In this document: in pieces, positions 6,505-59,547 of the stretch
How the letters are laid out: each line of letters starts with the position of its first letter
Numbering within the stretch: position 1 is the first letter of the stretch
Assembly: GCA_026989145.1 (NCBI GenBank)
Contig: JALSJU010000009.1
Span: 1 to 64,000 of the forward strand
Length of the DNA: 64,000 nt
Origin: Thiotrichaceae bacterium
Lineage (GTDB): Bacteria; Pseudomonadota; Gammaproteobacteria; Thiotrichales; Thiotrichaceae
Direction: 5' to 3'
The notes under the pieces: generated by a model
The model's input: only the letters and a program-made list of their open reading frames with translations
Database searches by the model: none
What the model was told of the DNA's origin: nothing
Position numbers and translations under genes: made by a program

Positions 6505-6555
6505 GGAACTGAACAACTTAGTTCATTTCTGCAAGTTTACAAGACATCAAAGCTA
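6505..6555. repeat. Degenerate half-copy related to intergenic element family A
   Basis: ggaactgaacaacttagttcatttctgcaagtttacaagacatcaa resembles family A terminus gctctgaacaacctagttggattctgcgaatttacaaggcatcaa. Confidence 0.5.
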
Positions 6556-14760: not shown

Positions 14761-14927
14761 TTAGCGTAGATTGTTGTGTAGTTGGGGCGCATTATCCCCT
14801 AGCTTAGCCTTTTGTGAAAGTGCTTTAACAATCTTTGAGGAAAACAAGATTAAATCTGATAAACTCGAACGGTCATATTTCTAGCATCATGGCATCTAAA
14901 AGCTTTTAATGTACACCTGTTCCATAA

Positions 14928-15187
14928 GGAATCTCTGAACAACCTAGCTGAGTTCTGGCAACGCCAAGTTTTCAAGTTCGAGACATTGATTTTAAGCATA
15001 GTTATTCTATGATTCAAATCAATAACGAAGAAGTTGGAAACTTGGCTAAGCCCCGTAGGGCGAGCTTATAAGGCATCAATTCCGTTGTTGTTATTTTTTG
15101 TGAAGGGGATAACCATTCTCAAAAAATACGCCTAGGACTTGACGCCTTGTAAGCTCGCAGAATTCAACTAGGTTATTCAGAGATTCC
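14928..15187 (+). mobile_element. MITE-like intergenic element family A, copy 1 (260 bp)
   Basis: TIRs ggaatctctgaacaacctagctgagttctg / reverse complement of cagaattcaactaggttattcagagattcc. Near-identical to 40739-40998. Flanked by ATAA on both sides. Confidence 0.85.
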
Positions 15188-15224
15188 ATAAAGTAACTAC
15201 GACCGGATGCTGATGAGAAACGTG

Positions 15225-20807: not shown

Positions 20808-20858
20808 TCGATGCTTTCCAGAGTTACTATAAATGTGTTTCTTTATTTACTACTGATT

Positions 20859-21022
20859 ACCTGAATCAGTGACTTCACTACGACACAATACGCAAGCTAT
20901 TGATTCATCGCGGGTTTAAAAAACACCCGCTCAACCTAATGGCGAAGCTAAGATTTTTCAAAACCCCGTGCTAAACCAATATCTTACGCCCTGCTATCCG
21001 CATTAAAGTCACGGATTCAGGT
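20859..21022. repeat. Palindromic intergenic element family C, copy 1 (164 bp)
   Basis: TIRs acctgaatcagtgactt / reverse complement of aaagtcacggattcaggt; shares most of its length with 48306-48430. Confidence 0.8.
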
Positions 21023-39531: not shown

Positions 39532-40737
39532 ATGACAATAACTCTAGGTACGCCGCTTTCGCCAACCGCCACTAAAGTTTTATTCTGTGGGGGTGGCGAG
39601 CTTGGTAAAGAAGTTGTTATCGAATTACAACGTTATGGCGTTGAAGTGATTGTAGTTGATAGATACCCCGATTCACCTGCGATGCAAGTAGCTCACCGAA
39701 GTCATTGTGTTTCCATGACTGACGGCGTGGCATTACGAACAGTGATTGAATTAGAAAAACCGGATTATATAGTTCCTGAGATTGAAGCAATTGCGACCGA
39801 CACTTTAGTAGAGCTTGAGAACGAAGGCTTTAATGTCATCCCCACTGCTAATGCCGCAAAGTTGACCATGAATCGCGAAGGTATTCGTCGCCTTGTGGCA
39901 GAAAAGCTGGGCATTAAAACATCCCCTTACCAGTTTGCTGAAACCCGTGAAGCATTTGATGCAGCTATAAAAGAAGTGGGCATCCCTTGCGTAATTAAAC
40001 CTATAATGAGTTCATCAGGTAAAGGCCAAAGTACTATTCAATCTGAATCTGATATTGATACGGCTTGGGATCACGCACAACAAGGTGGGCGTACAGGGGC
40101 TGGGAAAGTAATCATCGAAGGTTTTATTGATTTTGATTATGAAATAACCTTACTCACAGTTCGACACCTTAACAGTAGTAATAATAAAGAAGTTGAAACA
40201 AGCTTTTGTGAGCCCATCGGGCATCTACAAGTCAATGGGGACTATAGGCAATCATGGCAACCACAAAATATGTCTAGTAGCGCTTTACAAAAATCACGTG
40301 ATATTGCGACAATGGTTACTAAAGCCTTAGGTGGACGTGGGATTTTTGGCGTAGAACTTTTTATAAAAGGGGATGATGTTATCTTTAGTGAAGTCTCCCC
40401 TCGTCCGCATGACACTGGAATGGTTACGATGATTTCACAAGACCTTTCTCAATTCGCGCTTCATGCACGAGCTATATTAGGACTACCTATCCCAAACATT
40501 TATTTTCACGGGCCATCAGCCAGTAGTGTTCTTTTGGTAAAAGGAAAATCCACGCAGCTTAGCTTTCAAAATATTGATAAAGCCCTCCAACAAGAAAACA
40601 CCCAAGTACGCTTATTTGGAAAACCAGAAGTTGCTGGTGAGCGCCGTATGGGTGTTGTTCTTGCTCGTGGCGAGACAACCAAAATAGCTATTAATAAAGC
40701 TATTCAGAGTTCAAAATCTGTAACAGCGGTATTATAA
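39532..40737 (+). CDS. purT: Formate-dependent phosphoribosylglycinamide formyltransferase
   Basis: ATP-grasp; [43 protein letters not shown]. Confidence 0.96.
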
Positions 40738-40738
40738 A

Positions 40739-40998
40739 GGAGTCTCTGAATAACCTAGCTGAGTTCTGGCAACGCCAAGTTTTCAAGTTCGAGGCATTGA
40801 TTTTAAGCATAGTTATTCTATGGTTTAAATCAATAACGAAGAAGTTGGAAACTTGGCTAAGCCCTGTAGGGCGAGCTTACAAGGCATCAATTCCGTTGTT
40901 GTTATTTTTTGCGAAGGGAGCGACCATTCTCAAAAAATACGCCTAGGACTTGATACCTTGTAAACTAGCAGAACCCAACTAGGTTATTCAGAGCTTCC
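40739..40998 (+). mobile_element. MITE-like intergenic element family A, copy 2 (260 bp)
   Basis: Near-identical in length and sequence to 14928-15187. Flanked by TAAA on both sides (left copy overlaps the purT TAA stop). Confidence 0.85.
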
Positions 40999-41188
40999 TA
41001 AAGAAAAGCCTTTGTCAATAAAAAAGCGCAGAGTAAATATTGTCATTATGAGACCTTTTCATTTGTCAGTGGTGTAAGAAAAGTTGAGTGAAAGTTAAAT
41101 CATTTTGCTTATCATTCGACTCGTTCGAAGGTCTCACTATTATTTATTTTTCAGCGTCCTTCCTCATCGTTAAGACCTGAAATCTGAA

Positions 41189-44718: not shown

Positions 44719-44777
44719 TTAAGGAAAACCTGATTAAGTCCCATTAATTTTATGGGACTTAATCAGGGTTTCCTTAA
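44719..44777. repeat. Near-perfect palindrome, element family B copy 1, between ppsR and ppnN
   Basis: 26-bp arms ttaaggaaaacctgattaagtcccat / atgggacttaatcagggtttccttaa (one mismatch), 7-nt loop. TTAA at both outer edges. Confidence 0.85.
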
Positions 44778-48293: not shown

Positions 48294-48305
48294 GGAAAGA
48301 CTGGT

Positions 48306-48430
48306 AACTGAATCAGTGACTTCACTACGGCACAGTACGCAAGCTATTGATTCATCACGGGTTTAAAAAACCCCATGCTAAACCAATAACTTACACCCTA
48401 TTATCCCCACTGAAGTCACGGATTCAGGTT
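48306..48430. repeat. Palindromic intergenic element family C, copy 2 (~125 bp)
   Basis: aactgaatcagtgacttcactacggcacagtacgcaagctattgattcatcacgggtttaaaaaacc...gctaaaccaataacttac...gaagtcacggattcaggtt; lacks ~40 bp present in copy 1. Confidence 0.8.
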
Positions 48431-55784: not shown

Positions 55785-55866
55785 TTAAGGAAACCCTAAT
55801 AAGATCCATTATTTTAGCGTGCCATATCTGCCGCTATCTTTTAATCGACTTAATCAGGGTTTCCTT
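55785..55866. repeat. Element family B, copy 2 (~80 bp inverted repeat)
   Basis: ttaaggaaaccctaataag ... cttaatcagggtttccttgaa. Confidence 0.7.
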
Positions 55867-55870
55867 GAAA

Positions 55871-56157
55871 GAAGCTCTGAACAACCTAGTTGGATTCTGC
55901 GAATTTACAAGGCATCAAGCCCTAGGCGCATTTTTTGAAATCGATACGCCAGTGACATGCTGCAACAACCTCCGCAAAAAATTACAATTACGGAATAGAT
56001 GTCTTTAAGCTCGCTACCTATTATCTTGCACGGCTTAGTCAGGTTTCAAACGTCTTCGTTATTGATTTTAACCATAGATAATGACTATGCTTAAAAACAA
56101 TGCCTTGAACTTGAAAACTTGGCGTTGCCAGAATCAGCTAGGTTATTCAGAGGTTCC
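55871..56157 (-). mobile_element. MITE-like intergenic element family A, copy 3 (inverted, ~287 bp)
   Basis: gaagctctgaacaacctagttggattctgcgaatttacaaggcatcaa...gcatagt-like/cgttattgatttt...cttgaaaacttggcgttgccagaatcagctaggttattcagaggttcc; reverse complement matches copies 1 and 2. Confidence 0.8.
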
Positions 56158-59124: not shown

Positions 59125-59190
59125 GGAACATCTGAACTCTGGCAACGCCAAGTTTCAAGTTTGAGGCATTGATTTTAAGCATAGTCATTC
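59125..59190 (+). repeat. Truncated/internally deleted copy of element family A
   Basis: ggaacatctgaactctggcaacgccaagtttcaagtttgaggcattgattttaagcatagtcattctgta vs copy 1 ggaatctctgaac...ctggcaacgccaagttttcaagttcgagacattgattttaagcatagttattcta. Confidence 0.8.
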
Positions 59191-59547
59191 TGTATTCGCT
59201 TTTAAGTCATTTGCAAGCAAAGCACTAAATATGGTTATTCAGTGATTACTTAAAGAAAACACTGATTGACTCTCGTAACATTCTGTAAGTCTCAAGAGTA
59301 GTATTGTCTAGCTAGTCATTAAAAGCTCACATGCTTTGATACTGGATATACCTTTTGTCGTATTAGTTATTTTACTGTGGTTTTCTCGTTTTCTGCTAAT
59401 TTTTTAATCATTAGGCTGTCAAAATTGCTTAAATTTACACCAATTGAAGTGGCTCTCTAGGTGTTAAATAGGATTATGATATACACTCAGATTTTTTAAA
59501 TTGAAAGTATAAAGCTACTTTAAAATGAACAGGATCATTTTATTTTC

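Follow-up and report, generated by a model that had tools for sequence, protein, structure and literature searches.

MITEs are usually regarded as dead IS remnants with a meaningless middle, REP/BIME sequences pair imperfect palindromes in opposite orientation between genes and are marked by a GTAG-type foot and a linked RAYT transposase, and the 4-bp target of the IS5 subgroup is Y-T-A-R. Bacterial MITEs are short and devoid of ORFs, are bounded by TIRs and target-site duplications (TSDs), occur as many dispersed copies served by a transposase in trans, and form stable stem-loops (PMC10969869). Two long near-palindromic MITEs of Coxiella, QMITE1 and QMITE2, fold at -113 to -193 kcal/mol and exist in full and small versions; QMITE1 is associated with 2-4-bp repeats (WW, SS or GAAG) and an IHF site, QMITE2 with 7-9-bp repeats, and QMITE2-like sequence has been reported outside Coxiella too (PMC5896051).

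The 64-kb window considered here, meaning the whole stretch of DNA that was analysed, belongs to a draft Thiotrichaceae assembly of 2.63 Mb in 133 contigs and contains a 260-bp repeat for which no published description was found in the open-access literature. The reading preferred, with a probability of roughly 0.8, is that the repeat represents a family of MITEs that IS5-subgroup transposases mobilise in trans, furnished with a conserved two-hairpin module as its interior. As a MITE the repeat is nothing unusual. What was not expected is that its interior outlasts its ends, and the conserved double-hairpin core is the new part, which had been missed in the preliminary description.

Dispersed copies and their target sites

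The preliminary description presented the unit as a dispersed, TIR-bounded element without a transposase gene, and much of that picture holds (Table 1). Copies 1 and 2 are each 260 bp long and near-identical (93% identity), with the imperfect TIRs ascribed to their ends (GGARNCTCTGAAYAACCTAG), exact 4-bp TSDs as first read (ATAA/ATAA and TAAA/TAAA, respectively) and no internal ORF of 80 aa or more; copy 2 starts one base past the stop codon of a 401-aa ORF (39532-40737). The degenerate half at 6505-6555 was likewise recognized in the sequence. Two further copies needed redrawing. The inverted third copy is present, with 77% identity across the aligned part, but it starts at 55870 rather than 55871 (288 bp in all) and the match between its flanks is lost; the deleted copy, earlier ended at 59190, exists but is larger (125 bp) and has a duplication of its own. 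The suggested BLASTN search of the host genome bore out the dispersal, returning 93 matching stretches at about 40 separate places, copies and fragments counted together. The TIR pattern was found 67 times in a scan of this genome and once with the reversed control, and hence does not recur by chance. One further copy sits between two amino-acid-permease-like ORFs, and no convincing interrupted gene emerged after the flanks of the elements were rejoined. The pairing of copy 3 with G004:C78:23193 as orthologues was rejected because the flanks disagree.

Table 1. Element copies within the window and predicted structural parts of copy 1.
Feature	Coordinates	Strand	Remarks
Copy 1, full-length 260-bp element	14928..15187	+	TSD ATAA at 14924-14927 and 15188-15191
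Copy 2, full-length, 260 bp	40739..40998	+	TSD TAAA at 40735-40738 and 40999-41002
Copy 3, 288 bp, diverged	55870..56157	-	Flanks TGAA/CAAA, match lost
Internally deleted copy, 125 bp	59125..59249	+	TSD TTAA/TTAA
Degenerate half copy	6505..6555		Sequence inspection
Minimal 51-bp element, type II ends GGAAAACCTGATTAAGTCCCAT / GGAAACCCTGATTAAGTCCCAT, TTAA flanks	44723..44773		Same end type as the intact IS5 at L125
Second short element with type II ends, adjoining copy 3	55789..55864		
Left TIR, 5' side of ~30-bp closing stem (P1)	14928..14957	+	
Hairpin A, limits approximate	14963..15046	+	Covariance model R2 match 14957-15052
Small hairpin GCCCCGTAGGGC linking A and B, 12 nt	15049..15060	+	Helix 4
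Hairpin B, related to hairpin A in inverted orientation	15061..15155	+	Covariance model R1 match 15058-15159
Right TIR, 3' side of closing stem	15158..15187	+	

The window holds other repeats as well. A short MITE-like element with ends GAGACCTTTTCA...GAAGGTCTC follows copy 2 directly (41050-41137); full IS5-type elements with GAGACCTTTGCACGA ends exist in a sister genus (L143), and a related end lies at positions 1-103. A second dispersed family, with ends ACCTGAATCAGTGACTTC / ACCTGAATCCGTGAC, is represented at 20858-21022 (about 165 bp) and 48305-48429 (about 125 bp), with more partial matches at about 90 kb of G000:C9 (L342). Within the long ORF 226-2178, four 65-bp direct repeats (1465-1970) are 63-75% identical to a reference copy; this ORF encodes a tandem-repeat protein.

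Genome-wide, 32 distinct TIR pairs delimit elements of 50 to 330 bp, and the TSD is exact at all four positions in 19 of the 32 and at three of the four positions in six. TTAA accounts for 13 of the 19 exact duplications, with two each of ATAA, TAAA and TTTA. Being self-complementary, TTAA alone could belong to the TIR; ATAA, TAAA and TTTA are non-palindromic, so that the TSDs are not explainable as an extension of the TIR. The search for empty sites, also suggested at the outset, succeeded at the plsX-fabH pair, which is split by a 292-bp copy (G000:C28:18231-18522): the gap between the matching stretches is about 410 bp here vs 27 bp in the relative G004 (84-85% identical), where both flanks align, and a comparable insertion is missing in 11 of 11 congeners, all with short gaps. 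A second remnant beside this copy, with ends of a second type (type II, below), is likewise missing in G004. The genomes compared are drafts, and the relatives are 15-30% diverged. At copies 1 and 2 the gene order differs in the relatives, and comparison is therefore one-sided, with the element on neither flank in G004. Given the TSDs, the non-palindromic ones included, and the two-sided plsX-fabH comparison, the 260-bp repeat is a MITE, as had been proposed: a genuine mobile element without genes, whose insertion sites are TTAA-like.

A conserved double-hairpin interior

The 260-nt strand is predicted to fold into a three-way Y composed of the ~30-bp TIR stem, two ~90-nt hairpins and the linker hairpin, with a folding energy of -124.5 kcal/mol (z -13.8) that no shuffle equalled. 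Across 23 copies, drawn from five genomes, 93% of the cells are paired, changes on both sides occur in 45 of 100 pairs, and the cells so changed number 214, whereas shuffles gave 71 and slid controls no more than 47. The models R2 (hairpin A) and R1 (hairpin B) each recognise, on the opposite strand, the hairpin for which the other was built, which identifies A and B as inverted copies of one motif.

That this module covaries and is widely distributed is a matter of observation. Although built from its own bacterial family alone, and with E-values that are rough, R1 matches 33 of the 229 gammaproteobacterial genomes sampled, in 28 genera and with up to at least 16 copies each; many of the matches come in pairs of opposite orientation separated by about 4 nt. 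Among the carriers are Sessilibacter corallicola, Marinobacter sp. SS21 and a Saccharophagus MAG. The core-bearing elements are mostly 255-264 bp long, ranging up to about 300 bp, and their ends vary and are unrelated in sequence: GGAGCCTCTGATTAACCTCA, GGGCACCTCTATTAATAG and CCCGGCAAGGGTTTAC adjoin TTAA, and TACTCTTTCAAGG and TGTACTGCTTCACTC adjoin CTAG, a self-complementary tetranucleotide at which duplication and TIR extension are indistinguishable. The end CTAGTACTCTTTCAAGG has 60 exact copies in one genome, with no pair at IS-like spacing. Folding of 14 core elements whose ends differ gave the same Y, at z -9 to -19.5. In an alignment of 61 hairpins, which leans towards the model because it was fitted to it, 92% of the cells are paired, 34 of 36 pairs show two-sided changes, and covariation is 0.756 vs 0.179. 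The loop and bulge bases, GTT...CTTGnnAAGGGAAnnaCCATTnCC.GCGA...CGCCTTG, form a strand-specific motif that is invariant across about 30 genera. The S. corallicola element at L280 (4140-4394) carries the double-hairpin core within quite different ends (CTGTTCACACTAATTTAACCGCAC), and the L360 element, from another genus, had no match in plasmids or phages.

Since the interior recurs with different ends in many gammaproteobacteria, it seems to be kept for a reason of its own, and it is a conserved module of two ~90-nt inverted hairpins and a tiny linker hairpin rather than left-over transposase DNA. Derivation of the core from IS5 was considered and dropped: neither model matches the 12 IS5-bearing loci, save for one weak match away from the transposase. 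With A and B inverted, the same motif is displayed on both DNA strands, which fits a DNA-acting site better than a one-strand transcript. The core is thus more likely a DNA-level site than an RNA, and with no excess of G-U besides, selection for DNA-level recognition is the preferred reading. The module may serve as a target in DNA form, whether for a protein of the host or of transposition, for instance, or in an extruded or single-stranded state. A bolder version, put forward tentatively and at less than even odds, takes the double hairpin to be a functional module in its own right, conserved among gammaproteobacterial genomes either as a structured DNA site or, with lower likelihood, as an RNA, onto which the ends of different transposons have been grafted repeatedly; each lineage would then mobilise the same core using its own locally available transposase.

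It may instead be argued that the palindromes are by-products, with quasi-palindrome template switching keeping the arms similar and no function in the core. Compensatory changes in near-palindromes can indeed come from template switching at replication without selection, and changes found in a single copy only show no clear shortage in stems, with 50 in 200 paired columns vs 20 in 60 unpaired, so that the structure seems to be maintained in the mobile lineage and not in each resident copy. Moreover, elements of 156-174 bp without one hairpin, and 50-bp elements without both, still have TSDs, and hence insertion does not strictly depend on the hairpins. However, template switching would not preserve internal-loop and apical bases that are invariant across about 30 genera, and element length and hairpin spacing are maintained despite the differing end sequences, which makes this account unlikely.

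More improbable still is a conserved structured RNA gene, repeated by chance, with the Y fold as the active molecule transcribed from each copy. The very stable fold, the strong covariation and the invariant strand-specific motif are all as such a gene would have them; against it stand the insertion seen in the TSDs and at plsX-fabH, and the inverted arrangement of A and B, from which either strand yields one sense and one antisense motif. The non-Watson-Crick cells at well-paired positions on the model strand (A-C 73, G-T 23) and the private changes (G-U 12, A-C 10) also speak against an RNA, there being no G-U excess, as does the want of any Rfam family matching the window, the elements or their relatives in other genera at the gathering score; only weak hits, to microRNA precursors and the like, appeared below the cut-off. 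The motif preserved in internal loops prompts one to ask by what protein or process it is recognised.

Candidate IS5-family mobilisers

The preliminary description had attributed mobilisation to an IS acting in trans from elsewhere in the genome. An IS as the type of mobiliser stands, as IS5-family transposase genes were found inside matching ends elsewhere; its location in the same genome finds no support in the draft of the host, where an IS5-like N-terminal fragment and a single IS4-type transposase were all that turned up. No intact autonomous IS with the type I ends of the family (CTCTGAAYAACCTAG) was found in the host draft genome or the genus, and single TIR matches on C57, C73, C74, C96 and C112 were rejected as autonomous partners for having no transposase between TIRs. 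In a Burkholderiaceae MAG (L186), an end consisting of TTAA and GGAACCTCTGAACAACC is followed about 50 bp inward by the start of an IS5-family transposase ORF, and similar ends occur at L190 and L206; L186 stops at the contig end, and for this reason no autonomous copy was seen complete with type I ends on either side. The intact IS5 at L125, in a sister-genus genome (G032), has ends GGAAGCCCTGATTAAGTC / GGAAATCCTGATTAAGTCC with TTAA on both sides, and its protein and that of L206 match the IS5-family model NF033581 of NCBIfam (E 1e-89 or better). Type II ends of the L125 kind are found on the same core at C37 and C70 of the host genome and in G010 and G007. The type I end beside the IS5 ORF in L186, together with the type II ends matching the L125 IS5, makes an IS5-family element the well-supported candidate for the probable type of mobiliser.

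Plasmid-borne IS5 elements have ends of the GGA..CTCTG form and TTAG/CTAA-type duplications: that of pADP-1 has ends GGAATCTCTGCACGAATC and the duplication TTAG/TTAG, and another has ends GGAAACTCTGCACAAG and flanks CTAA/CTAG. Among the exact TSDs of the 260-bp family, TTAA (13/19) fits YTAR; ATAA, TAAA and TTTA do not strictly. In the proposed mechanism, IS5-subgroup transposases of the IS5 family would bind GGANNCTCTGANYAACC ends in trans, excise the element and insert it at a 4-bp TTAA-like target; the insertion and its site are observed, and the transposase step is suggested by the matching ends and targets. Mobilisation by a non-IS5 enzyme that duplicates TTAA-like tetranucleotides, such as one of the IS1380/piggyBac-like type, would suit the dominance of TTAA among the TSDs and the failure to find an IS5 with type I ends in the host genome, but it is very improbable with IS5 transposase genes lying directly inside the same ends and the type II ends matching an intact IS5.

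Two observations on IS5-type sequences may be added. The intact IS5 of L125 (G032:C154, 70-1330) lies within a short MITE flanked by TTAA on both sides, an instance of nested related elements. Intact ORFs of 130-140 aa that comprise only the N-terminal DUF772 part of an IS5-type transposase are present at L136 (G000:C65), L123 (G004:C76), L134 (G006:C163), and L138 and L148 (G008), and share neighbours: an elongation-factor-P-like gene in G000 and G004, and an ftsY-like gene in G006 and G008. They possibly encode a domesticated DNA-binding protein.

Comparison with described systems

In this family the middle is conserved over a whole bacterial class and the ends are variable, which provides a testable case of some MITE cores being under selection, and the covariance model detects otherwise unrecognisable elements in many genomes. 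With bacterial MITEs the 260-bp element shares its shortness, the absence of an ORF, TIRs, TSDs, dispersed copies, a probable transposase in trans and stable folding; it differs from them in that two inverted conserved hairpins and the TIR stem make up a Y whose pairing covaries across about 30 genera, and in that the same core is found with different ends. QMITE1 and QMITE2 are likewise strongly folding near-palindromes, set apart by their description from an element with 4-bp TTAA-like TSDs. The features in common with the IS5 subgroup (NF033581) are ends of the GGA..CTCTG/CCTGATTAAG kind, the transposase located inside such ends and, for the TTAA sites, 4-bp YTAR-like duplications, whereas the element itself has no transposase and its core, one weak match excepted, was not found in the IS5 loci tested. 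REP/BIME sequences resemble it in being inverted pairs, but the hairpins here are ~90 nt long and are bounded by TIRs and TSDs.
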